From Flavobacterium sp. KACC 22763 (GTDB taxonomy: Bacteria > Bacteroidota > Bacteroidia > Flavobacteriales > Flavobacteriaceae), in NCBI RefSeq assembly GCF_028736155.1, contig NZ_CP117879.1, positions 1,860,001 through 1,924,000 on the forward strand: DNA of 64,000 nucleotides, in the 5' to 3' direction. Positions within the stretch are counted from its first letter, which is position 1; every line of letters starts with the position of its first letter. Under the pieces are notes generated by a model. It saw only the letters and a program-made list of their open reading frames with translations, searched no databases and was not told the origin of the DNA. Of the stretch, positions 9,402 to 26,062 are shown piece after piece. A program made the position numbers and the translations under genes.

Positions 9402-9408
9402 CTATTTT

Positions 9409-10585: not shown

Positions 10586-10649
10586 TTTTTATAAATCTTT
10601 TTTTCAGACGCAACAAGCAGGCACCCGATGCATTGAGAAACGGTGCGTT

Positions 10650-10745: not shown

Positions 10746-10779
10746 TTGTAGTTAATCTGAACAATGATTAGATCTTTTA

Positions 10780-10894
10780 AAAAGAAGCCAGAGATTAGAA
10801 AAGCTAATCTCCGGCGGCTATAATAACAAAAAAGTCCGATTTTAGTGCTCCTTGAAATTCTCCTAAAAATCGCCCTTAATCCCATGAACTTCAG
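10780..10894 (-). ncRNA. Candidate FNR-box-driven small RNA, copy A
   Basis: A unit of about 115 bases on the minus strand. Upstream, an FNR-type box is centred about 41 bases before the predicted start, with TATTTTCG at 31-38 bases from the box centre as the -7 element. It ends in a hairpin at 10788-10814 (CCGGAGATTAG / CTAATCTCTGG) followed by CTTCTTTTT. About 80 percent of the unit matches copy B at 24900-25017. A short frame starting MGLRAIFRRIS is shared at its beginning with copy B, but B stops after 13 codons, so a long product is not conserved. The call is inferred from promoter, terminator and recurrence; no RNA family is recognised. Confidence 0.55.
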
Positions 10895-10928
10895 ATACGA
10901 AAATAATATAAAAATCCGAACTATTTTT

Positions 10929-10942
10929 TTGATTTAAATCAA
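10929..10942 (-). promoter_or_regulatory. FNR-type operator TTGATTTAAATCAA, site 1
   Basis: An exact match to the FNR/Crp-family consensus TTGAT-N4-ATCAA. The TAnnTTTG-like element TATTTTCG lies at 31-38 bases from its centre on the minus strand, placing the box near -41.5, the class II activator position. It controls the candidate small RNA at 10780-10894 and possibly the former DUF1275 gene beyond. Confidence 0.75.
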
Positions 10943-11039
10943 GTTTAAGCCCAGTGGAAAAAAGGTTCGAATGGACTTAAAAGAAAACTGAAAAACAAAT
11001 TCCCATTGCTTTAAGCGATAAAAAAAGCCTTAAGCCCAT

Positions 11040-11792
11040 TTATCTTGATCGGATGATGTACAGCTCGTTTGGCCCGTAAGCTTTGCGCCTCACCAAAAAG
11101 CTTACGCAGGAGATTTTTTGAAATTCAACCGGCACCCGGTAAAGGCTTATGCCCAGTTCATAATCGTTTCTTTCATATCTATTCGAGAAAAAATTCCTGG
11201 CCGACACTTCCCCATCCTTAAGCTTCAGAACTTCCTTCTGCATCTTTAAACCAATATAGGCAGTGCCCTGCCAGGCCATATTTCTGCCCGGTCCGTTGGG
11301 GCTGCCAAGCCCCCTGAAAGGATTCAAGTTCAGGGTGCATTTCTCTTTCCGAAAATGCGCCACCGTGACCGCTTCATTTTTAGCGCCGAGCACGTCCTCC
11401 AATTTCACGCAATGGCCAAACTCGGTCTGCTGCCCCATTTCCTCTGCAGATTCTATTTTTGAAAGCAGGACGCCCTTCGCATCAAATATATAGGTGCAGT
11501 TCCTAATTATGGCCAGGCTCTTCTGCTCATCATAATACTGATGCTTTAAAGGGAGAATGAATTTATGGTTTACAGTGTCAAAATTTATCCTTTCAGACAA
11601 TAGGTCCTGGGGAACAGCTTTTGAGACGGGAACAAGGGCATAATTCTCCGCGCTGATGCCCATCCGGTAATCTTTATAGGCGGCATCATACCGCATTTTT
11701 CCATACAATGCCGATAGCCAGTAAACTGCAGCACACAGTATGAAAAGCGCAGCTCCCAATAAAAGCATGGTTATCCTTCTTCTTGCCATCAA
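11040..11792 (-). CDS. Hypothetical membrane-anchored protein
   Basis: 250 residues. A basic start (MMARRR) leads to one transmembrane helix (about 8-28, 'MLLLGAALFILCAAVYWLSA'), then a long extracytoplasmic domain without recognisable motifs; three to four cysteines are scattered through it. No family is recognised. It is separated by about 50 bases from the membrane protein upstream at 11842-12768, on the same strand, so the two are probably co-expressed. Pairs of unknown membrane proteins like this are common in mobile-element cargo; toxin-immunity or envelope roles are possible but not supported by any visible motif. Confidence 0.7.
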   Translation of the reverse strand: MMARRRITMLLLGAALFILCAAVYWLSALYGKMRYDAAYKDYRMGISAENYALVPVSKAVPQDLLSERINFDTVNHKFILPLKHQYYDEQKSLAIIRNCTYIFDAKGVLLSKIESAEEMGQQTEFGHCVKLEDVLGAKNEAVTVAHFRKEKCTLNLNPFRGLGSPNGPGRNMAWQGTAYIGLKMQKEVLKLKDGEVSARNFFSNRYERNDYELGISLYRVPVEFQKISCVSFLVRRKAYGPNELYIIRSR

Positions 11793-11841
11793 ATTGGCTG
11801 TTATGGTTATCTATTCTATAAGTTCCCTTTAGGGTAAATTC

Positions 11842-12768
11842 CTATCGGCAGCTCTTCCTGATCTCATCGAGGATCCTATTGGACCTGTTGAAAATAATCT
11901 CTTCCTCCCCGCCGCCGTTTGGCCTCCAATGCTCCGAGGTTATGGCTTTATTTCCGCTTTTATAGGTCCTTCTTGAGACCAATGCGCTTTTCATTGCGTC
12001 TTTGGTCTCGATATCCGCTTTCGTCCCTAAATATTTCGCCGCAACTTTTGGCATTTCCCAAAAGCATTCCGTCCCATCACCAATGTCTATTATTCTGCTT
12101 TGGGAATCTTTCGGAAACAGCCTGTTGAGCCAGAACTGCTTTTCATATTTCGCATAGATCGGAACGGCGTTCAAATAAAGCCGATACCCAGCATAATGTT
12201 CTGTAAAATCGCTGCCCGCAATATAATTGTAATAGGCAATGGCTTCAATGGACTGCCATGCCATAAAACAGCTCTTGTCAAACAGCGGCATTTCAACTGT
12301 GATTCCCCTATCATCGGCAGACAGCCTATTTCGCCTCTTCCGCATCAGTTTGAGCCGCTTTTCGGAAACCGCAGCCCCAAATATCAGACCATGGATTAAA
12401 GCCAGCGCAAAAAATGCAGATAGGCAGACGGCTATCCAGCCTGACAGGCCGATATCCCATTTTAATTGAGCAGCAAAAAATAACACCAAAAACCCTGCAC
12501 TGAAAAATATTGAAAGCGTCGCAATAAAAACGCCCAAAAATCCATATCGCGGTTTTGGCCTTAGAAGCGTCAGCATCGCTGTTTGAGAAAACCATCCTGA
12601 AATGCCCCTAAAAAGAATCGATAGCGCAACAATGATAAAAACAGCAGGAATTATAAGCGGACCTACTGTTCTGGCTCCGCTTTTCAGGTCAAAAAAGGCC
12701 ATTGCCAGACCCGCTGCCAGCATAAAAATCCCAGCAAGCTTCTTAACTTTTCTCTCATTCAAATCCAT
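11842..12768 (-). CDS. Hypothetical four-helix membrane protein with C-terminal soluble domain
   Basis: 308 residues. Hydrophobic helices lie at about 12-27, 35-55, 78-102 and 108-135, followed by a basic loop ('KRLKLMRKRRNRLSADD') and a soluble domain in which 'GITVEMPLFDKSCFMAWQSI' resembles the beta-strand pattern of bacterial PH-like domains following membrane helices. That resemblance is weak and is my inference. The gene after it at 11040-11792 is also an unknown membrane protein; both may act together. Orientation matches the tra operon, but distance and intervening decay make it cargo rather than transfer machinery. Confidence 0.65.
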   Translation of the reverse strand: MDLNERKVKKLAGIFMLAAGLAMAFFDLKSGARTVGPLIIPAVFIIVALSILFRGISGWFSQTAMLTLLRPKPRYGFLGVFIATLSIFFSAGFLVLFFAAQLKWDIGLSGWIAVCLSAFFALALIHGLIFGAAVSEKRLKLMRKRRNRLSADDRGITVEMPLFDKSCFMAWQSIEAIAYYNYIAGSDFTEHYAGYRLYLNAVPIYAKYEKQFWLNRLFPKDSQSRIIDIGDGTECFWEMPKVAAKYLGTKADIETKDAMKSALVSRRTYKSGNKAITSEHWRPNGGGEEEIIFNRSNRILDEIRKSCR

Positions 12769-13028
12769 ACAAGCTTTTCCATAACAGGCATTTTATTTTT
12801 AGGCGGCACACCATTCCAATTCTGCCACATTCTGCAGCAATCCAATTGCCGATCCCTCAAAACCGCCCTCAGTGCAATGCAAATTTCAGAAAAAAGACAA
12901 TCTGGATTCAGCCCGATATAAATCAGCCCGGAACAATCCGATATCCGTAAAGGTTTTAGATAGATTCGCGTCAATGGACCAGGGCATAGTAAAAAAAAGA
13001 TATTGGAAACAGAAGAAGTGCAGATCCG

Positions 13029-13325
13029 CTAAATCGGACTTTTTGCCGCTATGCGCTGCAGGCCTAAAATGGTGAGGCAGCTTTCATCGGTATCGGAATC
13101 TATGGCAGCAAGCCCAAAATTTTCCAATTCCAATAAGGCTTCCATGATTTTTGTCTCATTTTCAATACCGTTGGCCGATGAAAACCAAGAGGAAGAAGGG
13201 CTGCTAAGCGCTTCGGCCATCTCTTCAAAACTAAGGCTTCTGGGATAAGCGCTGCCAAGAACGATCAGCATCTGATCTAAAAACTCGCTCTTGTTCTGCT
13301 TCTTGCCTATATTCGTCTGATCCAT
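13029..13325 (-). CDS. Small winged-helix-like hypothetical protein, copy 1
   Basis: 98 residues from the ATG at 13325, chosen over one four codons upstream because the paralogue at 25304-25612 begins the same way (MDQxxIGK). Conserved blocks are 'EFLDQMLIVLGSAYP', 'SFEEMAEAL', 'IMEALLELENFGLAAIDSD' and 'LTILGLQRIA'. The pattern of helix, helix, helix and final two-stranded wing suggests a small DNA-binding winged helix, but no family is recognised. Upstream lie a decayed Crp/Fnr C-terminus and a hairpin, the same neighbours as the second copy, showing that the whole segment was duplicated. The reading frame is intact while its neighbours decayed, suggesting it is still selected. Confidence 0.65.
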   Translation of the reverse strand: MDQTNIGKKQNKSEFLDQMLIVLGSAYPRSLSFEEMAEALSSPSSSWFSSANGIENETKIMEALLELENFGLAAIDSDTDESCLTILGLQRIAAKSPI

Positions 13326-13396
13326 ATCTTTTTGCATTTAAAACCATAAGTGGCTAATATATAATTTATATTCCGATATCATCGGCTTTATCCGAA

Positions 13397-13537
13397 TTAA
13401 AAGTTGGCGACATTGGCCAGCTGCTGCAAATCCAGAAGCTATATCCTTCTGTCTTCCATCCAGCTAAGCCTCTCATCTTTAAAATCATAAAGCACCCTAG
13501 CCAGGGTTTCGTTAATGGTGCCCACCATATTGGCCAG
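13397..13537 (-). pseudogene. C-terminal remnant of a Crp/Fnr regulator, copy 1
   Basis: On the minus strand the frame reads 'LANMVGTINETLARVLYDFK', then 'DERLSWMEDRRI', an in-frame stop, and 'LLDLQQLANVANF'. The intact regulator at 21533-22216 reads 'LAKMVGTVNETLARVLHDFK', 'NENLIWMEGRKI', 'QLVNFQQLIRIANFY'. Only the helix-turn-helix end is left; the cyclic-nucleotide-binding-like part is gone. The DNA-recognition helix is unchanged. It sits between the small gene at 13029-13325 and the hairpin at 13655-13681. Confidence 0.85.
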
Positions 13538-13654
13538 ACTAAAATCATTTTTTTATCAGAAAATTAAGCCGTAAATTGTACTGGAATAATTGGGTGGCAG
13601 TTATTTTTGAGAACAGAAAAAAGAAAAATGTTTTTGGTACTCTACGCATTGGCT

Positions 13655-13681
13655 CCAGAGGTTAGCCGCTCTAATCTCTGG
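13655..13681. repeat. Fourth, solitary copy of the small-RNA terminator hairpin
   Basis: CCAGAGGTTAGCCGCTC...CTAATCTCTGG matches the hairpins at 10788, 24911 and 25915. Here no FNR box lies at the expected distance to the right and no T run follows on the minus strand, so this copy looks decayed. The position next to a Crp/Fnr remnant mirrors the copy at 25.7-26.0 kb. Confidence 0.6.
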
Positions 13682-13795
13682 TTTCTGCCCCCTAATTTAA
13701 TTCATCTGCAGCCAATTATCAGACCCTATATTGAACGCTTCAATGAGCCCAAAATCAAAAATAGACAAAGGGCGTTTGCTTTGCGAAGATTTAAA

Positions 13796-13827
13796 AAGCC
13801 CCTGAAAACATAAGTCTTCAGGGGCTT
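13796..13827 (-). terminator. Terminator of the phosphoesterase gene
   Basis: AAGCCCCTGAA and TTCAGGGGCTT form a perfect 11-base stem with a 10-base loop; on the minus strand it is followed by a T-rich tail. It lies 27 bases beyond the end of the phosphoesterase gene at 13854. Confidence 0.85.
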
Positions 13828-13853
13828 CATAAATTAAAGCATTCGGCAATTGG

Positions 13854-15401
13854 TCACTGGAACCTTTTTATAAATTCCATCATATCGCCAATGGTCTGTA
13901 TCTCTTCTTTTTGGGTATTGCCCAGCGCTCTGGCCTTCTCAATATGCAGCAGGCTGCTTAGCATGGCTTTCTGAAGCCCGTTTAAGGGATCCCCGCTGGT
14001 GTCCGGTTCAGGAAGCAGCTCCCTTAAGTCCATCCCTGATGGAATTTCAGGCCAATTTGCCCTTTTCTGATTAGAAAAGACTTCTGTAAAGGGCAAAACC
14101 TCAGGATCCCTGTCCCTATCGGTCAGCGGATCCATCTGCCATTTCTGGCAAACCGTCTTTATGAATGATGCATGCTCAAACTGTCCGCTGACTACCGTCT
14201 GCGGCTGGATATAGGAAGACACCATTATCATCGGAACGCGCACCCCTAGACGGTCAAAGCCGAAACCGCACTCCCCCTTCATGCCAGCAGCAGGCGGTAC
14301 CGTACCTGGCGGCGCCACATGGTCATAGCAGCCTCCGTGCTCGTCATGGGTGATGATGAAAAGTATCTTGTCCCTTTTGGGGCTTTTTCTGATGGCATTG
14401 TACACTTCGCCGATGAGCTCGTCTCCCAACTTCACCGTCCCGACAGCCAATTCATGGTTCACTGCCGACGGATGCTGGTCATTGTGCTTATGCAGAAACT
14501 GGGGTTCCACAAAGCAGTATTGCGGCAGGGTGCCAAACTCCAGATCAAAGAAAAAATCGAGATGCCCGTGCGTATTGTCTTTTCCCTCGCCGGTTCCATT
14601 GACTATATAGGTCAGGCTTAAAGGCGCAATAGGCGAATAGACCTTCCATGAAACATTATTATCGTTCATGCGGTCAAAGATGGTCGGCAGCGACCAGACA
14701 TCCTTTATCCATGAATCCATCCCATGCAGATCGCCATCAATGCCTGGAAAACCTGTTCCATCCTCGCCAAGGGGATTAATCACTTTTCCCCCTGAGCTTG
14801 CCGCATGCCAGAATGCCCGATTGCAGTAGGTCTGGCTCGGCACCGAACAGTACCAGTGGTCAAAAACCGCAAACTCTTTGGCTAAAGTGGCCATTGCAGG
14901 AATCTGGTCCGGCTCAAAGCACTGCATGATCACCTCATACTGTTCATAGGTAGGATTATCAATGCTGTAAGCTGACCTGAGCGTATTTTCGTAATCGTTG
15001 ACAAAGCCATTCATGCTGGGCTCGCCCGGGGAAGCCGGCAGATTATAAGGCGGTGCCATTTTATAGTCAGCCGCTCCTATATTGCTCTCAGGGATGATGG
15101 AATTGAAAAGCTGCGTATTGACATGGGGGTATTCCTCACCCGGATCCGGATAGGGCATCGAGTAGCTCACCGCCCGCGAAGGGGAAATGTCCGTTTTCTC
15201 TGGATAGCCCGCCGCTCTGGCGGGAATGGGGTTCGCATAGTCAATATTGGGATTATAAAGCCCTTCAAAAGGCTTTTCAGGCGGCAGTTCGCCATTTTTA
15301 TAGAGATAGCCTAACAGATTGTCAAATGAGCGGTTCTCCAGCATAAGCACCACAATATGCTCAAAAGTTTCCAGTCCGTCAAATTGGTTTGCATTTTCCA
15401 T
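13854..15401 (-). CDS. Phosphoesterase family protein (phospholipase C / acid phosphatase-like)
   Basis: 515 residues from the ATG at 15401 (MENANQFDGLETF); a longer start 22 codons upstream adds no conserved sequence. The N-terminal motif 'FEHIVVLMLENRSFDNLLGY' is the metal-binding signature of the PF04185 phosphoesterases, with the acidic and asparagine/serine residues of the active site. Later motifs are 'SQTYCNRAFWHAASSGGKV', 'ITHDEHGGCYDHVAPP' (metal ligands) and 'RVPMIMVSSYIQP'. Members hydrolyse phospholipids or phosphomonoesters. No signal peptide is evident, unusual for this largely exported family, so cytosolic action or another export route is possible. Flanked by a strong terminator; stands alone. 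Confidence 0.9.
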   Translation of the reverse strand: MENANQFDGLETFEHIVVLMLENRSFDNLLGYLYKNGELPPEKPFEGLYNPNIDYANPIPARAAGYPEKTDISPSRAVSYSMPYPDPGEEYPHVNTQLFNSIIPESNIGAADYKMAPPYNLPASPGEPSMNGFVNDYENTLRSAYSIDNPTYEQYEVIMQCFEPDQIPAMATLAKEFAVFDHWYCSVPSQTYCNRAFWHAASSGGKVINPLGEDGTGFPGIDGDLHGMDSWIKDVWSLPTIFDRMNDNNVSWKVYSPIAPLSLTYIVNGTGEGKDNTHGHLDFFFDLEFGTLPQYCFVEPQFLHKHNDQHPSAVNHELAVGTVKLGDELIGEVYNAIRKSPKRDKILFIITHDEHGGCYDHVAPPGTVPPAAGMKGECGFGFDRLGVRVPMIMVSSYIQPQTVVSGQFEHASFIKTVCQKWQMDPLTDRDRDPEVLPFTEVFSNQKRANWPEIPSGMDLRELLPEPDTSGDPLNGLQKAMLSSLLHIEKARALGNTQKEEIQTIGDMMEFIKRFQ

Positions 15402-15578
15402 ATTCCAGCTGTTTTTTAAGTTATTAAATATAAGTAAATTACGACAATTAAAGCCAAGCCTGCGCAAGTAGTTCTACCTGTTTTAAAAGCTGGCCCCAGA
15501 GGCGCACTTATCCTAGCTTGAAATTGCTTTAATCCTAAAAAAGAATGGCCGTTTTATCAGTCTTTAACCGCTTCAAAT

Positions 15579-16757
15579 TTAACTCTTGGGTGAATAGATC
15601 CAGCCATAAATCCAATCAAGCCTTTGGATCTGCCTGCCTATAAAAAAACCGATTAAGCGGTCACGAAACCATGCTCCCATTGGATTGCTCCTGGTTTTAG
15701 AATCGCCTGTTTTTCTGGCGCTTTTTATTATTTTTTCTACTCTGGGCTGGCGTTCAGACTGAAAAATCCGAAACGCAGTGCTGTAGTCGCCATGCAATTT
15801 TAATGACTCGGCAATTGCAATTGTGTCTTCTAGAGCCAATGATGCTCCCTGTCCAATATGAGGAGAAATGCCATGCGCCGCATCTCCAATAAGGCAGACC
15901 CTGCCTTTATGCCAATGCAGAAGCTTAGGCACATCGTAAATCGGATAGGCAATAATCTCATGGCTATTTTTTATTATTTTAGAGAACAGAGGATCATCAT
16001 TTTTATGTACATCTATTAAATGTTTCTGAATTTCGGCTTTTAGCGTTTTTTCCATTTCCTGCCGCTTTGGCTGCAGCTCTCTAAAGTAATTGTTGAACCA
16101 CCAGACTTCCCCCTTATCAGAAACCGAATAGGCAAAAAATCCCCTTTCGCCAAAAGTCATCTGTATTGAATCCAACGGCTCTGAAAGTTCAGGAATCTTC
16201 GCATAGCCGCCAGTTGAGATAAGTTTGGTGTATTTGAGAGCGGAAACTCCAGGAAACAGCTGTTTTCTAACCTCGGAAAACATTCCGTCACAGCCTATCA
16301 TAATATCGCCTACGGCTTCAGTTCCGTCAGCAAAATATGCGGTCACTTTTCTGTCTGCCTCACTATACCTTAGAAATTTTTTATTATAGTTTATTGTTAT
16401 ACCTGCAGCTTTTGCCGCCATCCGGACATATCGGTTCAGGTTTGCCCTTTTAATCTGAATGGTCTCAGCTCCATACTGCTGCTTCTGATAGGCCGTGCCC
16501 AGTTCTGCTATCTGTCTTCCTTTGGAATTAAAAAATTTCATCGAACCGGGAGTATAATCTTCTTTGAGCAGCTTCAAATCAACAAATTCTTTCAATACAT
16601 TAAGACCATTGGGAGTGACGCCTAAAAAGGCGCCCTCTTTTATATTCTCTTCTGATCTCGATTCAAATATTTCAGGCTCAAAGCCTATTTTTTTCAGCTG
16701 TAGAGCCAGTATTGGCCCTGCTGCGCCCGCGCCTATTATAATCGCTTTTTTATCCAT
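15579..16757 (-). CDS. FAD-dependent monooxygenase (TetX/PHBH-like)
   Basis: 392 residues from the ATG at 16757 (MDKKAIIIGAGAAGP); a start nine codons earlier is also possible. The N-terminal Rossmann motif GAGAAG binds FAD, 'GCDGMFSEVRKQLFPG' corresponds to the conserved DG motif, and 'CLIGDAAHGISPHIGQGASL' is the GD motif contacting the flavin ribityl chain. These define class A aromatic hydroxylases, which include antibiotic-modifying TetX. Substrate cannot be told from sequence. The divergent AraC-type gene at 17019 shares the intervening promoter region, so it is the likely regulator of this enzyme. Confidence 0.9.
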   Translation of the reverse strand: MDKKAIIIGAGAAGPILALQLKKIGFEPEIFESRSEENIKEGAFLGVTPNGLNVLKEFVDLKLLKEDYTPGSMKFFNSKGRQIAELGTAYQKQQYGAETIQIKRANLNRYVRMAAKAAGITINYNKKFLRYSEADRKVTAYFADGTEAVGDIMIGCDGMFSEVRKQLFPGVSALKYTKLISTGGYAKIPELSEPLDSIQMTFGERGFFAYSVSDKGEVWWFNNYFRELQPKRQEMEKTLKAEIQKHLIDVHKNDDPLFSKIIKNSHEIIAYPIYDVPKLLHWHKGRVCLIGDAAHGISPHIGQGASLALEDTIAIAESLKLHGDYSTAFRIFQSERQPRVEKIIKSARKTGDSKTRSNPMGAWFRDRLIGFFIGRQIQRLDWIYGWIYSPKS

Positions 16758-17018
16758 TGCTTTTCTATTTGATTTATAATCCATTTTATTCCTTAAATAA
16801 TTAGCGCAAAACACTGATCCAGCAATACCCTGAGTTTCCCCATTGTATCTCTTTTCCTGCAAGCCATAGTTTCAATAATCGTTCTGGAAAGCATCAGTCT
16901 GCGGAGTTTTTTCTAAATTTGTATTTGTCTGTTCCTTGCTTTGTCATTATGCAAAACTATCAAGCTTGCAGAAAACGGAGTTGCAAAAAAAGGAGTCAGG
17001 CTGGCAAATTAAGGAGCA

Positions 17019-17999
17019 ATGGGATTTGAATTAAAAAATGATAAAAAGGCGCTTGAAATAGCCTTTGATGAAAATGATTTTAGCAATCACGGCTTCAAAG
17101 AAGACGTTTTTGAAATGAACCTGCCTTTTGGGCAAGTAACGGGCAGGCAATGGCTTTTTGACGGCATCAAGATTCTATATTCTGAAACTAATCTTGACAG
17201 CCCTGTCGAACTGGACTGGAAAGGAGATACGGAATTGGTAGCCATGCATTTTAACCTTCAGGGAAGAACCTCCATCAAACAGGATGGAATGGACAATTCT
17301 TTTGAGCTGAATAAAAATCAGCACAATTTATTCTATGGCACCAATGCTGAAGGCAAAATGAAATTTGATGAATTGCGGATGAAGTCATTTATGATTCAAT
17401 TCGAAAAGAATTCTTTTTTGAGAATGTCCAAAGACGGGAATGAATCCCTTAAAAGGTTTGCCGGCAAAATAGCTTCGGGAACCCCTTCGGCTTTTTCAAA
17501 TTCCAATCTCAATATCAATCTGCCCATACAGACCTGCATCAATTCTATTTTGAATTGTGAGTACTCCAGCGGATTAAAAAGATTGTTTCTTCTATCCAAA
17601 ACAATTGAGCTGCTTGTTCTCCAGGCGGAATCATTCAATGCTTTTCAAAATTCAAAATCCCAATACATAAAACATGATTACGACAAAGAGCGGATCGTAT
17701 TTGCCCGCGATTATCTGGGTAAAAATGTTGAGTCGCCTCCCACACTGGCTGAATTGGCCAAAATAGCAGGAATAAACGAATACAAGCTGAAGCGGGGTTT
17801 TAAAGAAATGTTTAATCAGACAGCCTTCTCCTACCTGTCTGACTTGCGTTTAGAGCTGGCAAAAAACGATCTGCTTGACGGCAGAAAACTGGCTTCTGAA
17901 ATCGCATTTGAATTGGGCTACTATTCATTGCAGCACTTTAGCAATGCATTTAAAAAAAAGTTCGGCATTGCCCCAAGCCAGGTTAGACGCTCTAGATAA
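17019..17999 (+). CDS. AraC family transcriptional regulator
   Basis: 326 residues. The N-terminal two-thirds is an unclassified ligand or dimerisation domain with 'MHFNLQGRTSIKQ'. The last 100 residues carry two helix-turn-helix units: 'TLAELAKIAGINEYKLKRGF' and 'ASEIAFELGYYSLQHFSNAF', then 'KKKFGIAPSQVRR', the standard AraC ending. A good ribosome-binding-like AAGGAG lies seven bases before the ATG, unusual for this phylum. It is transcribed away from the FAD monooxygenase at 15579-16757, which suggests control of that gene in response to its substrate. Confidence 0.92.
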   Translation: MGFELKNDKKALEIAFDENDFSNHGFKEDVFEMNLPFGQVTGRQWLFDGIKILYSETNLDSPVELDWKGDTELVAMHFNLQGRTSIKQDGMDNSFELNKNQHNLFYGTNAEGKMKFDELRMKSFMIQFEKNSFLRMSKDGNESLKRFAGKIASGTPSAFSNSNLNINLPIQTCINSILNCEYSSGLKRLFLLSKTIELLVLQAESFNAFQNSKSQYIKHDYDKERIVFARDYLGKNVESPPTLAELAKIAGINEYKLKRGFKEMFNQTAFSYLSDLRLELAKNDLLDGRKLASEIAFELGYYSLQHFSNAFKKKFGIAPSQVRRSR

Positions 18000-18077
18000 G
18001 TCAGTATAGCTGTTTCTTTATTACATAAAAACACCTGTTCTCACTAACACTAACTGTTCTCAATCTGGGAAAACGCC

Positions 18078-19456: not shown

Positions 19457-19688
19457 AAATTTTGCGCCAACCAATTTCGGCCCGGCACATTTGCCTGATC
19501 CGTGCCCAAAATAGTGCGCCGGAACTTGCTTCGCCAGTCCGCTAACGCTCACGTGCAGCGTATAGCGGGAAGAGCTCATAAAAAAGCATTGCATATGCCT
19601 AAAAAAATCTGAGCCATCGCTTCTCTGGATTTCCCTCCTTCCGATGATTTAACAGGCACTCTCCGATATGAATCTGCTAGTGAAGATT

Positions 19689-20456
19689 TTATGGAGCCAA
19701 TCTGTTATAGTGCTGCAGTTTCATTCTGCCAACCAGGCCATTGAGATAATCCAGCAGCACCAGCCCTTCTTTTTCAGTAATCCTGCCGGCCAAATAGCTG
19801 TTCAATTCATCATTTTCATCGGCATACAGCTTGATTTTTTCCTGATTATTGCCAATGATGCTGAATTCCAGATTCGCAATCCTATCAGCGAGTTTGATTA
19901 TGATTGCATTCTGGTTCAGGACTATTTTTTCATACATTGCCTGTTTCCTTTCTTTCCTGTTTTCCCCCTTGCCATCAGTCAGGGACCATACTATTTCAAA
20001 AATATGTATCCCAAACCTGTCAATTATTTCATCCCTGTCCGTATCTGTATCTTCCAGCACATCATGCAGCCAAGCGCTGCTCCATAAATCGATATTCATT
20101 TCAGTGTCAGGCAAAATGCCATTGCGCAGCAATACGCTAACTGCATTTACAAGGTGCACCTCATAGGGGTATTTTCCATATTTCTGGTTTCCATGCTTTT
20201 CAGCCGCAAAACTTCTGGCCTCATCCACTTTTTTTCCTAATGCCCTTATGGCTGTCTTATAATCCATGGCGTCGCCTTCATCGAGCCAGCCGGAAGCATA
20301 CCTGCTCATAAAAGATTTTAAGGAGCTCAAATCGCCATTCCACCGTCCATTTTGAAAAGATTCCAAAGTGCCTGCAGAATCTCCAATTCTGCCTTCTTTA
20401 ATTCTATAGAGCGTTTCGATGCCGTTGTGGCTGCTGATATAATATTTATACTCCAT
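19689..20456 (-). CDS. HD-domain hydrolase related to (p)ppGpp hydrolases
   Basis: 255 residues. An N-terminal segment of about 75 residues is unfamiliar; then 'ARSFAAEKHGNQKYGKYPYE' gives the first histidine region, 'SSAWLHDVLEDTDTD' the HDxxEDT motif, and 'IIIKLADRIANLE' the final aspartate. This order is that of the RelA/SpoT hydrolase domain and small Mesh1-like hydrolases. No synthetase domain follows, so it would be a stand-alone small alarmone or nucleotide hydrolase. Right before its start lies a 121-base five-base tandem repeat, which may alter its expression. Confidence 0.85.
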   Translation of the reverse strand: MEYKYYISSHNGIETLYRIKEGRIGDSAGTLESFQNGRWNGDLSSLKSFMSRYASGWLDEGDAMDYKTAIRALGKKVDEARSFAAEKHGNQKYGKYPYEVHLVNAVSVLLRNGILPDTEMNIDLWSSAWLHDVLEDTDTDRDEIIDRFGIHIFEIVWSLTDGKGENRKERKQAMYEKIVLNQNAIIIKLADRIANLEFSIIGNNQEKIKLYADENDELNSYLAGRITEKEGLVLLDYLNGLVGRMKLQHYNRLAP

Positions 20457-20484
20457 TTTGGTAAGATTTAATAGAACTTATATT

Positions 20485-20605
20485 TTAGATTAGATTAGAT
20501 TAGATTAGATTAGATTAGATTAGATTATATTAGATTAGATTAGATTAGATTAGATTAGATTATATTAGATTAGATTAGATTAGATTAGATTAGATTAGAT
20601 TAGAT
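20485..20605. repeat. Tandem TTAGA microsatellite upstream of the HD-hydrolase gene
   Basis: About 24 copies of a five-base unit (TTAGA on the plus strand, TCTAA on the coding strand of the HD gene), interrupted twice by TATAT at 20526-20530 and 20561-20565 and fading into TCGGATTGGAT. It begins 29 bases ahead of the ATG at 20456, in the region where its promoter must lie, between that gene and the end of DUF1275. A unit of five is not a multiple of three, but since it is outside the coding sequence, length change would alter promoter spacing or leader length. Confidence 0.95.
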
Positions 20606-20623
20606 CGGATTGGATTTGATCTG

Positions 20624-21352
20624 CTATTGTTTTCTTTTTAATTTGCGCGCAAGCAGGATTACATTTAGCTTAATATTGTCATAAATTAAGCCCGCAAACA
20701 ATATAAGTCCTCCAAGAAATAATGCCTGCAGCCCTATTTTTGAATAAAAAACGCCTCCTGTAATGCCTCCAATGAAAAAAAAGCTGATAATAATTATCCG
20801 CAGCTTAATTGAAGAGGAAAGTTCAGCTTTCCTATTTTGCTCCCTATAAAAGAAAAGCTGGGACAGCTCAATGCCCAAATCGGTAAATAGGCCGGTTAAA
20901 TGGGTGGTTCTCACTACGGAATTTGAGATTCTTGTAACAAAAGAATTCTGCATTCCCATTGCAAAAAGCAGAATAAAGGAAATTAAATTTGGAAAAACGG
21001 CCTTTAAGCCATCTCCAAAGAAGGCAATAAAAAATAAAATTGCAATCTCAATGCAGGCAGGAATAAGATGCACGATATTTTCTCTTTTGCGCACTACCAG
21101 CTCCATTAGAAGGCTCGATGTGAAAGAGCCCATAAAAAAGAAAAATATATAGCCAAAGCACGTCAATGCCGCTAAGAGATCAAGCTTGAAGATTTCATCT
21201 ACAAAAAACGCAAAATGGCCCGTCACATTGGTGGTAAGGGTCTGCACTGAAAAAAAACCTGCCACATTTACCATCCCGGCAACAGACGAGAGAAGGGCGG
21301 CAATTTTTAGATTGTGCCTCAAACTTCTTTTTTTTCCTCGGTGCTTAAACAT
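20624..21352 (-). CDS. DUF1275 (YoaK-like) membrane protein
   Basis: About 242 residues from the ATG at 21352 (MFKHRGKKRS), the start shared with the pseudogene at 10137-10585; the frame is open 43 codons further upstream. Five to six hydrophobic segments are visible, and conserved blocks 'AGMVNVAGFFSVQTLTTNVT' and 'GMQNSFVTRISNSVVRTTHL' with 'TGLFTDLGIELSQLFF' define DUF1275. Function is unknown; the family is thought to be small-molecule transporters. It lies downstream of the Crp/Fnr gene on the same strand and is probably transcribed with it from the palindrome promoter at 22251-22284. Confidence 0.92.
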   Translation of the reverse strand: MFKHRGKKRSLRHNLKIAALLSSVAGMVNVAGFFSVQTLTTNVTGHFAFFVDEIFKLDLLAALTCFGYIFFFFMGSFTSSLLMELVVRKRENIVHLIPACIEIAILFFIAFFGDGLKAVFPNLISFILLFAMGMQNSFVTRISNSVVRTTHLTGLFTDLGIELSQLFFYREQNRKAELSSSIKLRIIIISFFFIGGITGGVFYSKIGLQALFLGGLILFAGLIYDNIKLNVILLARKLKRKQ

Positions 21353-21532
21353 TTCCAGCAGTGCTTTTATAAGTTGGCGAAGCATTACTTTTAAAATGCC
21401 TTTCATTTGTAAATAGGGCAATTTTTCTTTTTGCCTCCTTAACATATTGCTGCAAAGAAGGGGCAGCTTTCCTCTCTTCAAACAAAATTCCGCCCAGCCT
21501 GGCCAGATCAGTTAACCTTCATAGCCTTGCCA

Positions 21533-22216
21533 TCAATAAAAATTGGCTATGCGGATCAATTGCTGGAAATTAACCAGCTGGATCTTGCGCCCTTCCATCC
21601 ATATAAGATTTTCATTCTTAAAATCATGGAGCACCCTTGCCAGAGTTTCATTTACAGTGCCTACCATTTTGGCCAGATCTCCCCTGGAAAGGGTAATAAA
21701 AACATTTTTCTGGCCATCATCTGTTTTATATTTATCATGCAGAATCAATAGGCTAAGCGCCACGCGCTCCCTTACGGTCCGCTGCGATAAAACAGCCATT
21801 AGATTTGCCACCACGCTAAACTCATGGCTGAGGCATTTTAAAAGCAGGCGCGAAAACACTGCAGAATTATTAAGAATATTAAAAAAATCCTCTTTGGATA
21901 TAAATGAAATGACTGAATTTTCAATGGCCACAGCGTTATCTCCATATGCCTTCTCGCTTAGTATGGCCGTATAGCCGAAAAACTCTCCTGAACTGTAGAT
22001 GTAAATAATCTGCTCCCTTCCATCATTATCGACCTTGTGCTTTTTGATCTTGCCTGTCTGAATATAAAAAATGCCTGTAGGCAGCGTCCCTTCGGTAAAT
22101 ACTGTCTGGTTTTTAGCATACTTTCTGCTTTGCATCACCTTTTCAAGCAGGTCCCTATCGCTTTGGGGCAGCTCATTTAAAATATACTGGTTATTGAAGA
22201 TGAATTTTGAAATCAT
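21533..22216 (-). CDS. Crp/Fnr family transcriptional regulator
   Basis: 227 residues: an N-terminal cyclic-nucleotide-binding-like beta roll ('FTEGTLPTGIFYIQTGKIKK', 'IYIYSSGEFFGYTAILSE'), a dimerisation helix, and a C-terminal winged helix with recognition helix 'GTVNETLARVLHDF'. The E..xR pattern matches the FNR helix contacting TTGAT, where FNR has E-x-x-S-R and this protein E-T-L-A-R. Only one cysteine (in 'LLLKCLSHEF') is present and there is no N-terminal cysteine cluster, so oxygen sensing by a 4Fe-4S cluster as in FNR is unlikely; redox, NO or another ligand is possible. Five matching boxes lie in this region, one in its own promoter. Confidence 0.92.
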   Translation of the reverse strand: MISKFIFNNQYILNELPQSDRDLLEKVMQSRKYAKNQTVFTEGTLPTGIFYIQTGKIKKHKVDNDGREQIIYIYSSGEFFGYTAILSEKAYGDNAVAIENSVISFISKEDFFNILNNSAVFSRLLLKCLSHEFSVVANLMAVLSQRTVRERVALSLLILHDKYKTDDGQKNVFITLSRGDLAKMVGTVNETLARVLHDFKNENLIWMEGRKIQLVNFQQLIRIANFY

Positions 22217-22250
22217 AGCTGTATCAAAGCTACAATATTTTTCCCTACTC

Positions 22251-22284
22251 CATATAAAACTTGATTTAAATCAAGTTTTATATG
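22251..22284 (-). promoter_or_regulatory. 34-base perfect palindrome with FNR-type box at the Crp/Fnr promoter
   Basis: Left half CATATAAAACTTGATTT is the exact reverse complement of the right half. The core TTGATTTAAATCAA (22261-22274) is the FNR-type box. On the minus strand TATTGTAG lies 31-38 bases from the centre, the register used by the other sites, and the better consensus TAGCTTTG overlaps it at 36-43. The predicted transcript start is only 5-10 bases before the ATG. Autoregulation by the gene at 21533-22216 is inferred. Confidence 0.85.
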
Positions 22285-22645
22285 CCGTTCCAATCAGCTG
22301 GATCGATTTCGAAACCTTTTGCTTTTGCAGCATTGCCCCCTGAAATGATAAGCCGGCATATGCCGTTGTGCCTTGCAGACCGCTCCGCCGCAAATTTTAA
22401 AAGCTTTAAAGAATCTGCCAATGAAGAAATCTCTAACGTCGCACCTATTGTCCAATGAAAGAGCCATAAGGGAATTTAAAGAAATCCTATCTAATCTGAA
22501 TGCTGGCCGATAAAAACACAGAAAAAACAGCCAGTGCAAGCGCTATAGCTATAAAACTTGGCAGCCGGCAATGCAAAATAAATGCGCTATCATAGCGCAT
22601 AAGGCGAAAGGCTGCCGCCACTGCCAATGCCATATCAGATAATCT

Positions 22646-22686
22646 AAAAAAAAAGGAAAAGCATCAGTTAAACGCTCTTCCTTTTT
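22646..22686 (-). terminator. Terminator of the DUF983 gene
   Basis: On the minus strand AAAAAGGAAGAGC pairs with GCTTTTCCTTTTT followed by a T run, about 20 bases after the end of the gene at 22707. The 360 bases between the palindrome and this terminator hold no supported gene. Confidence 0.75.
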
Positions 22687-22706
22687 CCGGTCAGGAGTTT
22701 TTTAAA

Positions 22707-23108
22707 TTATTCTTTTTTTATTGCCGCTTTCGGATCATAGCAGACAAACATATTGATATAAATATTTCGGGATAATCGCAGCAATATCGGAAACAAAATT
22801 ACCAGCACTGCAGTAATTGCAATAAACGATGTTTTTATTCCAGAATCAAAAATAAGATATGAGATGGCAAAAACAGCAATTCCAACACCGACATTCAACC
22901 CATAGCTTACATACATTGCGCCAAAAAAGAAAGAAGGCTCTATCTGATATCTTAGCCCGCAATGGCTGCACTTCTCATGCATTTTTAAAACAGAGCCCAA
23001 ATGCAGCAGGTTTTTATCCACGTACATATTCCCATTCTGGCATTTAGGGCAGCTTCCCGTTAAAATGCTATTTAATCTGCTTCCTTTCTTCATCTTCGAA
23101 ATATCCAT
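22707..23108 (-). CDS. DUF983 family zinc-ribbon membrane protein
   Basis: 133 residues. An N-terminal zinc ribbon is formed by 'GSCPKCQNGNMY' and 'KCSHCGLRYQIEPSFFFGAM' (two CxxC pairs), followed by two transmembrane helices (about 66-85 and 92-110). This is the standard DUF983 layout, common in Bacteroidota and Alphaproteobacteria, function unknown. The gene is 60 bases downstream of the phnA-like gene on the same strand, with its own terminator after it. Confidence 0.92.
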   Translation of the reverse strand: MDISKMKKGSRLNSILTGSCPKCQNGNMYVDKNLLHLGSVLKMHEKCSHCGLRYQIEPSFFFGAMYVSYGLNVGVGIAVFAISYLIFDSGIKTSFIAITAVLVILFPILLRLSRNIYINMFVCYDPKAAIKKE

Positions 23109-23167
23109 TTAAAGCTCCAAATCCATGAGCCACGGTTTAATTTTAAGTTTATAGATGCCCTGAGGGA

Positions 23168-23746
23168 CTATCTCTTTACAAATTTGGTTAAAATCACGAT
23201 AGCCTGCCCCTCTATTTTCCCTTCGATCTGCTCATGGTTGTCATGGACCAAACGGATGTTTCGAACTGCCGTGCCGACTTTCGCATTTAAAGACGAACCT
23301 TTTACATCCAAATCTTTGATAAGGGTCACCGTATCGCCATTTTGCAGGATATTGCCATTGCTGTCTTTGTGGAAATTAATGGCCCCGTCATCGGTATGGT
23401 CTCCGGCTGCTTTTGCCCATTGCAGATTTTCATCATCCAAATACATCATATCCAGCGCATCGGCTGCCCAGCTTTCATTGCGAAACCGGTTAAGCATGCG
23501 CCATGATACCACCTGCACGGCCGGCACTTCGCTCCACATTGATATTGGCAGAAAATTTTTCCAGAAAGCATCATCCAATTCCTCTTTTTTTTCAATTTGG
23601 CGAAGGCATTTCTCATTGATTAAAATCCAACCGTCCGCCCCTTTATTTTGGGCTGGCGGAACTTCATAAGCAACTAGATTTTTATTGATGTCGCTCAATT
23701 CGCAGACATTTCCGCTTCTCTTTTTTAATAATTCCTCTAATTTCAT
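23168..23746 (-). CDS. PhnA-like protein (YjdM family)
   Basis: 192 residues. The C-terminal 70 residues, from 'GAINFHKDSNGNILQNGDTV' through 'TLIKDLDVKGSSLNAKVGTA' to 'IEGQAIVILTKFVKR', are the PhnA/YjdM domain, an SH3-like fold once linked to phosphonate use but not a proven enzyme of that pathway. The N-terminal part starts MKLEELLKKRSGNVCELSD; the usual paired zinc-ribbon cysteines of YjdM are reduced here, with only C15 and C47 in that region. Same strand as DUF983; possible two-gene unit. Confidence 0.88.
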   Translation of the reverse strand: MKLEELLKKRSGNVCELSDINKNLVAYEVPPAQNKGADGWILINEKCLRQIEKKEELDDAFWKNFLPISMWSEVPAVQVVSWRMLNRFRNESWAADALDMMYLDDENLQWAKAAGDHTDDGAINFHKDSNGNILQNGDTVTLIKDLDVKGSSLNAKVGTAVRNIRLVHDNHEQIEGKIEGQAIVILTKFVKR

Positions 23747-23868
23747 TTTATTTTATTTGGAAATAAAGATTACAGGCTTCTCAGAACATATTCTAAATCC
23801 ATATATCCTTCACAGTCCCTATTTTAATTGATTTTATTTGGCAGCGTTTATAGATTTCATGCCCCAAT

Positions 23869-24465
23869 TTAAGCCGTTTTTCTCCAGAAGCTTAATACCC
23901 CGCCGTGCGAAACGGATTCTAGGCTGAAACTCTTTGGAACCTCTCTGCAATTGCTCCAGTAGGTAACCAGTTTTGTGCCAATGGGAGTTTTCTCCAGCTG
24001 GCCTTTAAGATAAGCCGTATATAGATTATACAGTTCCTCACTTGGATCAATTGATTTGTCAATGCGGGCCGTCAGATCTATATTTTCCTGAAATGAATTG
24101 AAAAAATAGAAAGCGTCATAATCCAAAAAAGATATCTCCATAATATTTGAGTGTATGAATTCTGCATTATCAATCTTATATTTTTCGGCAATTTTCCGCG
24201 ATAATTTTATAAGCGATTCCCTTTGCTCGACCCCATAAAAAATCCCATTGGTTAAAGCGGCCCCCACAAGGCAGAATTTTCCAGCCCCCGAGCCTATATC
24301 CAATACCCTTTTACCAGGTTTGTCCACCAAAAAACCAGCCGCTTTTCTGGCTATTTTTACAGGTGTCCAATGGCGGGCAGCCAGCTTCTTTATCCTAATA
24401 GGGTACACTTGGTTAAACTCGTTATCATCAATAGATCTATTTTGCTTGAGCTGTTCAAAAATCAT
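23869..24465 (-). CDS. Class I SAM-dependent methyltransferase
   Basis: 198 residues. Motif I 'KRVLDIGSGAGKFCLVGAAL' binds S-adenosylmethionine, an acidic residue ending strand two is in 'IFYGVEQRESLI', and 'AEFIHSNIMEI' supplies motif III. An aromatic 'YDAFYFFNSFQENI' takes the place of the usual catalytic motif IV, so the substrate class is not clear. An exact FNR-type box lies about 124 bases upstream with a TATTTTTG -7 element 53-60 bases from its centre, suggesting class I activation by the local Crp/Fnr protein. Confidence 0.88.
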   Translation of the reverse strand: MIFEQLKQNRSIDDNEFNQVYPIRIKKLAARHWTPVKIARKAAGFLVDKPGKRVLDIGSGAGKFCLVGAALTNGIFYGVEQRESLIKLSRKIAEKYKIDNAEFIHSNIMEISFLDYDAFYFFNSFQENIDLTARIDKSIDPSEELYNLYTAYLKGQLEKTPIGTKLVTYWSNCREVPKSFSLESVSHGGVLSFWRKTA

Positions 24466-24588
24466 TTTATAAATACTTTTGCATTTGCTGCAGTTGGCTT
24501 AATTTTCCCTGCTAAATGGAATAATTTGACAAGTGGCAAAAATATAGAGAGTCCCAATATATTTAGCTGATTAATATCTTTATAAAAT

Positions 24589-24602
24589 TTGATTTAAATC
24601 AA
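24589..24602 (-). promoter_or_regulatory. FNR-type operator TTGATTTAAATCAA, upstream of the methyltransferase
   Basis: Exact copy of the box. On the minus strand a perfect TAnnTTTG element (TATTTTTG) starts 53 bases from the box centre, which would place the box near -62, a class I activator position; a weaker TAAATATA sits at the 31-38 register used at the other sites. Confidence 0.7.
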
Positions 24603-24774
24603 AAAAAAGAAGGGGCAGAAAATGTAATTTTAACAGATAATTATAACAGGCCGCTTTGGCAGCCGAATATTATCCATTAGAGATAAATAAATAACCAATG
24701 GCATAAATAGAGGGCGGGATATTTTTAGAATCTGCCCTTATCCCTTAAAGCCGGAAAAGTGCCATCTTCTTTCC

Positions 24775-24860
24775 AGCAGCGCTTCCCCAAAAAGCTTTTC
24801 CAATTAAAGCAAAAGCAGCAAACAGCTTTTTTTTTGGGGATGCCGCAGGATTCAAAAATA
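24775..24860. repeat. Duplicated hairpin element, copy B
   Basis: CCCCAAAAAGC / GCTTTTTTTTTGGGG inverted arms with flanking GCAGCGCTT and GGGGATGCCGCAGGATTC, the counterpart of the element at 10650-10745. With the adjacent small-RNA unit it makes a duplicated block of about 290 bases. Confidence 0.65.
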
Positions 24861-24899
24861 GTTGGCTATAGTTAAAAATGAATTAATAGTAAGATCCCT

Positions 24900-25017
24900 T
24901 GCAAAGAAAACCAGAGATTAAAGAAGCTAAATCTCTGGCGGCAATAATAACAAAAAAGTCTGATTTTTAGCTGTCTGAAATTCTCCTAAAAATCATTCTC
25001 ATTCCCATGAACTTGAG
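24900..25017 (-). ncRNA. Candidate FNR-box-driven small RNA, copy B
   Basis: About 117 bases on the minus strand. The predicted start is 41 bases from the centre of the FNR box at 25052-25065, with TATTTTCG as -7 element in the same register as copy A. The terminator hairpin CCAGAGATT / AATCTCTGG (24911-24938) is followed by TTTTCTTT. TTTGTTATTAT just before the hairpin is shared with copy A, and TTTGTTAT with copy C. A 13-codon frame MGMRMIFRRISDS opens near the start, similar to copy A, so a dual peptide/RNA role is possible. Confidence 0.6.
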
Positions 25018-25051
25018 AAGCGAAAATAGCATAAATATCCGAACTATTTTT

Positions 25052-25065
25052 TTGATTTAAATCAA
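25052..25065 (-). promoter_or_regulatory. FNR-type operator TTGATTTAAATCAA, small-RNA copy B
   Basis: Exact copy of the box, 31 bases from the centre to the first base of TATTTTCG on the minus strand, as for copy A. The box is followed on the minus strand by AAAAATAGTTCGGAT, identical in copy A. Confidence 0.75.
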
Positions 25066-25303
25066 GAATTCCGTCAAAGGATTCCGATTTCAATTATAAA
25101 TCAGCAGCGATATAAGAGCTGCCCTAAATTAAGGCTCCAAAACGCAAAGCCCTTTATTAAGCCCACGGCATTGCCACACTCCTTTCGTTTTATCTTTATA
25201 TTGCACGCATTCTTCGCGTATGCATCTTGATTGAACCGCATTATATTTCCCATTCTCCATTTCAGAAAGGCATTGCAGATGGAAATGCAGACCAATAAAA
25301 AAA

Positions 25304-25612
25304 TCATACAAGCCGCAAAAAAAATCTTTTTCCGGCAATCCGCTCCAATCCTAAAACGCTGAGAGAGCTTTCATCGCTATTAGAATCTATAGCCACAAGG
25401 CCTAAACTTTCCAATTCCAATAAGGCCTCCATGACTCTTGACTCAATTTCGATGCTGCTGCCCGATAAGGATGCGCCGCTGCCAGGGCCGCAAAACATTT
25501 CGGCCATTTCTTCAAAAGCCACGCTGCAGGGATACGCATGCCCTAGAACGATCAAAATCTGATCTAAAAACTCGCACCTGCCTTTCTCCTTCCCAATATC
25601 CATTTGATCCAT
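25304..25612 (-). CDS. Small winged-helix-like hypothetical protein, copy 2
   Basis: 102 residues, paralogue of 13029-13325: 'CEFLDQILIVLGHAYP', 'AFEEMAEMFCG', 'VMEALLELESLGLVAIDSNS' and 'LSVLGLERIAGKR' align block by block. The C-terminus (FFLRLV) differs. Secondary-structure pattern suggests a small winged helix, not assigned to a family. Upstream come a Crp/Fnr remnant, a small-RNA unit and an FNR box in the same order as around copy 1, except that copy 1 has lost the box. Retention of both frames while neighbours decayed hints at function. Confidence 0.65.
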   Translation of the reverse strand: MDQMDIGKEKGRCEFLDQILIVLGHAYPCSVAFEEMAEMFCGPGSGASLSGSSIEIESRVMEALLELESLGLVAIDSNSDESSLSVLGLERIAGKRFFLRLV

Positions 25613-25684
25613 ATATTTCTAAAATTCAAAACCGTTATAGGCTTATATATAACTTACATTCTGATATCTTCCGCTTTATTCGGA

Positions 25685-25797
25685 CTAAAAGTTAGCGGCA
25701 TCGCCCAGCTGTGAAAAATTGAACAACCTTATTCCAGATCAGCCTATCATCATTAAAATGGTGGCCATCTTTGATCTGTCTAATGCCGGCAGACAGT
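25685..25797 (-). pseudogene. C-terminal remnant of a Crp/Fnr regulator, copy 2
   Basis: Minus-strand reading gives 'HHFNDDRLIWN', matching 'HDFKNENLIWM' of the intact regulator, and after a frame change 'QLGDAANF' and a stop, matching 'QLIRIANFY'. More decayed than the copy at 13397-13537. It lies in the same order relative to the small winged-helix-like gene and the hairpin. Confidence 0.65.
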
Positions 25798-25904
25798 ACT
25801 CAAATAGCTTGCCGAAACCGAGAAAAACCCTTCTGGGGAAATTGGCAATGAGCTGAATTAAAATAGCCGGGTCATGTCAAAAAACTAATATCATAATTTG
25901 CCTA

Positions 25905-26014
25905 AATAATAAAACCAGAGATTTAGCGGCTAATCTCTGGCCCTATAGTTCCATAACAAATAAATCCTACTAAAATCCTGATAATAGCCGCTGCTCAATT
26001 CTAGGAGTCTCCAA
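25905..26014 (-). ncRNA. Candidate FNR-box-driven small RNA, copy C
   Basis: About 110 bases on the minus strand. TATTTTAG lies 31-38 bases from the centre of the FNR box at 26049-26062, the same register as copies A and B. The terminator hairpin CCAGAGATTAG / CTAAATCTCTGG at 25915-25940 is followed by TTTTATTATTT. The segment TTTGTTAT before the hairpin is shared. The rest differs from A and B, so only promoter and 3' end are conserved. No initiator ATG like that of A and B is seen, favouring a non-coding product. Confidence 0.55.
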
Positions 26015-26048
26015 AGACTAAAATACAATTAAATGCTTTGCAAAAAAT

Positions 26049-26062
26049 TTGATTTAAATCAA
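26049..26062 (-). promoter_or_regulatory. FNR-type operator TTGATTTAAATCAA, small-RNA copy C
   Basis: Exact copy of the box. The spacing to the TATTTTAG -7 element equals that of copies A and B although the intervening sequence differs, which argues for selection on the promoter. Confidence 0.75.

Follow-up and report, generated by a model that had tools for sequence, protein, structure and literature searches.

Short Crp/Fnr-box units beside a Crp/Fnr-family regulator gene: a candidate small-RNA family in Flavobacterium

What is encoded by three short units in the genome of Flavobacterium sp. KACC 22763, each of which begins with a Crp/Fnr-type palindrome and ends in a terminator-like hairpin? 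The units (A, B and C) all lie on the minus strand of the 64,000-nucleotide stretch analysed here (NCBI RefSeq assembly GCF_028736155.1, contig NZ_CP117879.1, positions 1,860,001 to 1,924,000), hereafter the window, to which all unprefixed coordinates refer. The reading that we favour, at a probability of roughly 0.7, is that they are small-RNA genes with products of about 110-115 nt, which would be activated by the adjacent Crp/Fnr-family regulator (21533-22216). It is favoured because exact copies of the palindrome cluster with the regulator gene, because the regulator is present in every genome known to carry units while being rare in the genus, and because the distance between palindrome and promoter tracks the type of promoter.

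Each unit carries an exact TTGATTTAAATCAA palindrome (the box), followed after exactly 23 bases by a -7 element, TATTTTCG in A and B and TATTTTAG in C, and then by an intrinsic-type terminator hairpin as read from the sequence, CCRGAGATT...AATCTCTGG with a T-rich tail, before which all three share TTTGTTAT. The original prediction had described three such box-promoter-hairpin units with fixed spacing and this common motif, and we found all of them. The hairpin, said to follow at 110-117 bases, fits that distance when counted from the end of the box (114, 113 and 108 bases in A, B and C), but not when counted from the start of the -7 element (91, 90 and 85 bases). A and B are near-duplicates, as had been noticed, with 83% likeness over 233 aligned bases, and C diverges from them between promoter and hairpin. 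Each predicted RNA opens with a 5' half that varies, continues with a U-rich stretch whose end is UUUGUYAU, and closes with the terminator hairpin. RNA starts and operator centres were computed with the T of TAnnTTTG as -12, the position given for F. johnsoniae promoters in PMC6847099. The features are as follows.

10929..10942, minus strand: Crp/Fnr-type operator of unit A, exact TTGATTTAAATCAA
10898..10905, minus strand: -7 element TATTTTCG of unit A, 23 bases past the box
10780..10893, minus strand: predicted small RNA A (putative start, placed by the -7 rule of F. johnsoniae; 3' end taken at the T-rich tail)
10788..10814, minus strand: terminator hairpin of unit A
10664..10723, minus strand: second inverted repeat CCCCAAAAA/TTTTTGGGG, closing module A
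25052..25065, minus strand: operator of unit B, exact TTGATTTAAATCAA
25021..25028, minus strand: -7 element TATTTTCG of unit B
24902..25016, minus strand: predicted small RNA B (putative start)
24911..24938, minus strand: terminator hairpin of unit B
24781..24843, minus strand: second inverted repeat, closing module B
26049..26062, minus strand: operator of unit C, exact TTGATTTAAATCAA
26018..26025, minus strand: -7 element TATTTTAG of unit C
25904..26013, minus strand: predicted small RNA C (putative start)
25915..25940, minus strand: terminator hairpin of unit C
about 13561..13688, plus strand: fourth unit D, decayed, in which the hairpin (13655-13681) survives but the box is gone
21533-22216, minus strand: Crp/Fnr-family regulator gene (PF00027 + PF13545), proposed activator of the units
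22261..22274, minus strand: TTGATTTAAATCAA operator, 28 bases ahead of the -7 element of the regulator gene
23869-24465, minus strand: S-adenosylmethionine (SAM) methyltransferase-like gene, predicted to be co-regulated
24589..24602, minus strand: TTGATTTAAATCAA operator, 44 bases ahead of the -7 element of the methyltransferase gene

A-C therefore stand as predicted, but a count of three was too low, since there is a decayed fourth unit and the same operator occurs at two protein-gene promoters: two further exact boxes in the window, at 22261 and 24589, precede the regulator and methyltransferase genes. The exact 14-mer TTGATTTAAATCAA has 7 occurrences in the genome of 5,561,005 bases, five of them within about 15 kb (10929-26062), and the remaining two sit in stretches judged by eye to be protein-coding. 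Sites with at most two mismatches to the box number 7 in the window, as many as in none of 100 shuffles (0/100). The hairpin core alone is not special, because GAGATT-N4-14-AATCTC occurs 8 times genome-wide, three of these being the unit hairpins, and its reversed control 11 times.

The regulator combines a cyclic nucleotide monophosphate (cNMP)-binding domain (PF00027) with a Crp-type helix-turn-helix (HTH; PF13545), both above the Pfam cut-offs, and its closest solved structure by sequence is 2gau. The original prediction called the units FNR-box-driven. In the sense of an oxygen-sensing FNR this is not supported, and we reject an iron-sulphur FNR on the cysteine count: iron-sulphur FNR uses four cysteine ligands, and the window regulator possesses a single cysteine, its copies in another Flavobacterium genome (G307) have two and one, and six aligned regulators including that of the window have 0 to 2 in a count by eye. 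The curated Fnr model is not reached either, the best NCBIfam match being PRK11161 with 81.7 bits against a cut-off of 228. The HTH contains ...NETLARVL..., which is reminiscent of the E-x-x-x-R contact pattern of FNR-type helices.

At 70% identity or more, the regulator occurs in only 6 of 299 genus genomes (the match in G218 being split in two pieces), and 3 more match at E 1e-40 or better with only 37% identity. It is nevertheless present in all five genomes with units (89-100% identity): 100% in this genome and F. nitrogenifigens, 99% in F. tistrianum, 90% in Flavobacterium sp. Root186 and 89% in G307, which has a second copy at 68%. Among the 396 other genomes drawn from the family, 4, which belong to other genera, carry the regulator at 69-72% identity with a box at the gene. 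Relatives are found in Chryseobacterium, Cellulophaga and others (best 120 of 279 matches), and seven plasmid records match, all at less than 60% identity. As far as these genomes go, the regulator and its box are spread wider than the predicted RNAs.

The distance between box and promoter was taken as the number of bases between the box and TAnnTTTG with at least 5 of the 6 fixed positions matching, in counts in which orthologous promoters are not independent of one another. It amounts to 23 in 7 of the 8 units with an intact box (A, B, C, unit C of Root186 and of F. tistrianum, and units AB and E of G307; the near-identical copies of F. nitrogenifigens were left out), which supports the class-II-like operator position proposed at the outset, and the spacer sequences of AB, C and E are unlike one another. 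At the eight promoters listed as methyltransferase promoters it is 44 throughout; five of these begin directly with the methyltransferase gene, and in the remaining three, those of G004, G235 and G218, the methyltransferase gene is preceded by one 123-126 codons long, with a GCV_H domain in G004 and G218, the two scanned. On the far side of the regulator box it is 44 or 45 before phosphoenolpyruvate (PEP) carboxykinase (PF01293) in Root186, G307, G463 and G695, likewise 44 or 45 before a shorter PEP carboxykinase-related frame of 183 codons in G136 (judged by its N-terminal letters). In G611 and G602, where a small gene and a methyltransferase-like gene (domain scan made for G611) take this place, the spacing is 44. 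Together these bring the co-regulated protein-gene promoters at 44-45 to 15 (8 + 5 + 2). TAnnTTTG at 44-45 is missing on the far side in one of the G307 copies, in F. tistrianum and in the window, which has TGCTTTTG at 45. The regulator's own promoters show 27 or 28 in all nine listed, as do all three evaluated in other genera (G611, with its box at the edge of the stretch, was left out). Spacings of 23 and 44 are 21 bp, or two helical turns, apart, and 28 is about half a turn off; extra TAnnTTTG-like matches occur in some promoters, e.g. at 27 in methyltransferase promoters and at 45 in C.

The arrangement around the regulator box varies among genomes. In Root186, G307 and two other genera the box lies between the regulator and a divergent PEP carboxykinase gene (L177 9295-10995, L176 4695-6429, L204 19280-19900, L209 363-2058), and in other genomes a pair of GcvH-like and methyltransferase genes occupies the place of PEP carboxykinase.

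Relatives of the units were sought in two ways. A box-plus-hairpin pattern scan of a collection of genomes from 84,980 species yielded 89 stretches, three of which were judged real upon inspection; family sequence was not seen in the others. F. nitrogenifigens (L077) carries B and C, F. tistrianum (L125) carries C with the box TTGATTTTAATCAA, and Root186 (L068) carries C plus a D unit. An RNA covariance model (R1), built from five units and excluding G307, was run over 398 genus genomes, six of which match at E <=0.1 and three are real: the genome of the window (G000), G202 (the same contig as L077) and G307, in which the divergent AB unit was recovered at 88 bits (E 3e-14) and a further unit, E, at 31 bits (E 0.001). 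Unit E, 3 kb upstream of AB, possesses the box TTGACTTAAATCAA, TAATTTAG at 23 and a TTTTTTTGTCAT stretch, and ends in the hairpin GCCGGAG...CTCCGGC followed by a T-run. The covariance search of flavobacterial genomes suggested originally thus bore fruit, and the pairing of box and hairpin extends beyond recent duplicates, to F. nitrogenifigens, F. tistrianum, Root186 and G307.

The remaining R1 matches in the genus, in G096 (two), G341 and G353, were dismissed, as nothing at these loci comes closer to the box than three mismatches. Over 397 genomes of the family (237 genera), R1 found nothing convincing beyond the window's own genome: none of five weak matches (E 0.01-0.08) has an intact box near it, one of them (L183) having a one-mismatch box at another distance. 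Two extra weak matches of a model R2 (L208, E 0.16; L177, E 0.59) are taken as chance. BLASTN with unit B matched 84 of 299 genus genomes at E <=0.01, only G000 and G202 being real, and blastn of the B and C regions against plasmids gave no match. No relative of the units was seen outside Flavobacterium among the genomes searched. The predicted family of short units is, to judge from these genomes, known so far from Flavobacterium only and rare within the genus. Within that range, the comparison supports the undescribed Bacteroidota family proposed originally.

Which parts of the units are constrained was assessed in an alignment of A, B and the AB unit of G307, divided into segments chosen by the analyst. 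Invariant columns make up 2/18 upstream of the box, 13/14 in the box, 12/23 in the spacer, 7/8 in the -7 element, 17/25 in the next 25 columns, 17/19 in the stem 1 arm and loop, 9/18 in the rest of the loop and the 3' arm, 19/21 in the linker, 23/28 in the hairpin, 27/49 in the gap, 24/26 and 23/26 in the arms of the second inverted repeat, 18/43 in its loop and 2/34 beyond. Box, -7 element, linker and hairpin together (62/71) are more often invariant than spacer, 5' part and post-terminator stretch (56/97; Fisher p 3e-5, with stem 1 and the second repeat excluded), and the view that promoter and 3' end are selected is thus borne out by comparison with relatives. Over 8 distinct sequences the hairpin has 95% of cells paired, against at most 54% in slid structures, and three of its pairs have changed on both sides, a number reached by 7 of 500 shuffles. 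Because conservation falls to 2/18 upstream and to 2/34 beyond the second repeat, an A/B-type unit is, on this alignment, a module of about 300 bp from box to second inverted repeat. Across this genome, F. tistrianum and Root186, the part of C that runs from -7 element to hairpin is nearly identical, and its flanks differ more.

The second inverted repeat is an imperfect palindrome, CCCCAAAA...TTTTGGGG, within an outer stem, with conserved arms and a free loop, and lies about 70-80 bases past the hairpin of A, B and both G307 units, AB and E (L175 about 14118-14184). F. tistrianum C has a similar repeat, CCCCAGAA/TTTCTGGGG; none is found in C of the window and of Root186 or in the two D units. 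Candidate roles are those of a second RNA, of a terminator working in both directions and of an end used in recombination.

Several observations weigh against the reading as regulator-activated small RNAs. The regulator does not need the units, because it occurs without a nearby one: none was found in the 18-34 kb around it in G136, G004, G235 and G218, or in the 38 kb at each of the four loci from other genera. The Root186 relative of unit D has a box without a -7 element at 23, the sole exception among the eight. All three double changes in the hairpin come from a single sequence, E, and the C hairpin of Root186 has lost two pairs. The 5' stem of A and B is weakly supported, with one compensatory pair in the A/B-type alignment, a covariation score reached by 80 of 500 shuffles and a compensatory-pair count reached by 419 of 500. 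Folding of A, B and C (z -1.0 to -1.3) and of F. tistrianum C (z -0.7) is not clearly below shuffled sequence; the AB unit of G307 is the only one that is (z -4.1). The identity of C with F. tistrianum alone proves little, because nearby coding stretches of the two genomes are nearly identical too (95.6%). A duplex scan against 56 open reading frames (ORFs) of the window gave no shared or convincing target: below z -3 there was one ORF for A, a different one for B and none for C. A generic seed, with UUUGUUAU pairing with A-rich start regions, had to be rejected, its complement being found at 0 of 244 crude local ORF starts against 2.0 expected. Complements of the conserved AB loop with at most one mismatch number 17 in the whole genome and 11 in the reversed control, and the two exact ones are simply A and B read on the other strand.

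Could the units be start-stop relics or miniature cassettes, i.e. promoter-terminator fragments copied by recombination and perhaps transcribed, whose RNA has no function? We hold this to be unlikely. It agrees with the duplicate nature of A and B, with D units lacking a box or a -7 element, with the absence of B from Root186, which has a box-to-box junction instead, and the empty searches for module B in the Root186 and F. tistrianum genomes, with the sharp module borders and with regulator-bearing genomes that have no units. The uneven constraint, however, tells against it: spacer and 5' part vary in sequence, but box, -7 element, the 23 bp between these two, linker and hairpin are preserved, and the hairpin of E has been maintained through compensatory changes.

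That the units instead give rise to mRNAs for very small proteins seems to us most improbable. A does lie inside an open frame of 93 codons (10604-10885), but this passes through the terminator; B and the AB unit of G307 have a 13-codon frame in common (by eye), yet codon changes between them mostly change the amino acid and the adjacent TTTTTAGGAGAATTTC is identical; and C has a 22-codon TTG frame (by eye), with no frame common to AB, C and E seen. There is no ATG frame of at least 60 codons starting within 260 bases of the boxes of the B and C units and of G307 AB. Alternatively, the palindromes might be decoys or a DNA-level switch for the regulator, with RNAs as by-products. Such a view is invited by the presence of five identical sites no more than 15 kb from a single regulator gene. 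We nonetheless give it very little credence, as a decoy would have no need of a -7 element at a set distance or of a terminator hairpin that covaries.

If the units are small-RNA genes activated by the regulator, a dimer of the latter would bind TTGATTTAAATCAA. At the RNA promoters the operator would be centred near -42.5, a class-II position, and activate; at the co-regulated protein genes it would lie 21-22 bp further upstream, near -63.5, and activate in a class-I-like manner; and at the regulator's own promoter, near -47 and about half a turn off, it would be self-limiting. Both class labels, and the idea of self-limitation, are carried over from E. coli rules. The constant 3' part of the RNAs may serve as a stabilising or chaperone-binding scaffold and the variable 5' part may pair with targets, because the 3' part is constant and the 5' half differs among AB, C and E; transcription, activation rather than repression, base pairing and the scaffold role are what we infer. 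The partners PEP carboxykinase, GcvH-like protein and methyltransferase suggest central carbon and one-carbon metabolism. The signal of the regulator might be related to oxygen, because PEP carboxykinase in Bacteroidota also serves fermentation. No Hfq (PF17209) was matched in this genome, in a search whose control detected Hfq in 5 of 14 known genomes; a different RNA partner, or none, is therefore expected, and Bacteroides is reported to be without an obvious Hfq homologue. Tentatively, and with considerable doubt, one may picture a self-contained regulon, borne in this genome by a conjugative element, in which the operator at three phases (23, 44-45 and 27-28 bp) would set small-RNA activation, metabolic activation or self-limitation, a 3' scaffold free of Hfq (UUUGUYAU plus hairpin) would carry swapped 5' halves, and new small-RNA functions would arise by copying of the module of about 300 bp.

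The surroundings bear on how the units travel. A TraG-family conjugation ATPase gene (6103-8592, TIGR03783) lies near them, and F. tistrianum has a counterpart of window positions 1-9981, 84% identical, at a distance of about 6 kb from the C unit in that genome. Because TraG-type genes lie near the units in both genomes, the units look like cargo of conjugative elements there. In Root186, which is without module B, the methyltransferase box is fused to the sequence upstream of the window's B box (L178 6464-6477 versus 24589-25065), which is what recombination between the two boxes would leave behind. C-terminal remnants of the Crp/Fnr gene are found at 13422-13538 and, by eye, about 25690-25730, each just upstream of one of two paralogous genes for 102 amino acids (13029-13337; 25304-25612), whose winged-helix match is weak and falls short of the Pfam cut-off, and the stretch with this gene is 74% shared between unit neighbourhoods (L178 6892-7351; window 13026-13485). 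Units, regulator pieces and the 102-amino-acid gene may have been copied together. A DUF1275 gene (20624-21481) adjoins the regulator and a second, partial copy (10137-10673) adjoins unit A. Between the units lie genes for a phospholipase C/acid phosphatase-like protein (13854-15467) and an FAD-dependent monooxygenase-like protein (15579-16862), both well under the curated NCBIfam cut-off of their best match.

How do the units compare with known small RNAs? FnrS of E. coli and Salmonella is reportedly a short FNR-activated RNA with a TTGAT-N4-ATCAA-type operator and an intrinsic terminator, and shares with the units its shortness, the type of operator and the terminator. The units differ in that they have no Rfam match, that their regulator is not an iron-sulphur FNR, that the activator gene is adjacent, that the genome gives no Hfq match and that there are several siblings per locus. 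Rfam gave no gathering-level match in the window; at E <=5 over 24750-26150 (B and C) mir-2131 and BsrF appeared below threshold, neither of them FnrS, and are taken as chance. AniS and NmsR of Neisseria are said to be sibling small RNAs, Hfq-dependent, with AniS dependent on FNR; they are siblings as here, but of another phylum and Hfq-dependent, in a sequence comparison made through Rfam. A small RNA of a Bacteroidota conjugative element, which acts on a tra operon, resembles the units in being carried by an element, and we know of no Crp/Fnr operator for it. The Rfp small RNAs belong to the same genus, and Rfp18 of Flavobacterium psychrophilum is widely conserved in it according to PMC9723704, the main text of which does not contain the words FNR and Crp; the units are rare and regulator-tied, and are set apart from the Rfp RNAs by description, not by sequence. 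In searches of open-licence full texts, none of the papers listed describes, to judge by title, such a family in Flavobacteria. The kind, a Crp/Fnr-activated small RNA, is known from FnrS; new would be an uncatalogued family linked with an activator of its own.

With operator, promoter, terminator and likely activator all legible from sequence, the family is a ready system for finding signal and regulon, and it offers a route to an Hfq-independent RNA scaffold in this phylum. It would also be an example of small-RNA genes that increase in number and diverge in the form of modules.

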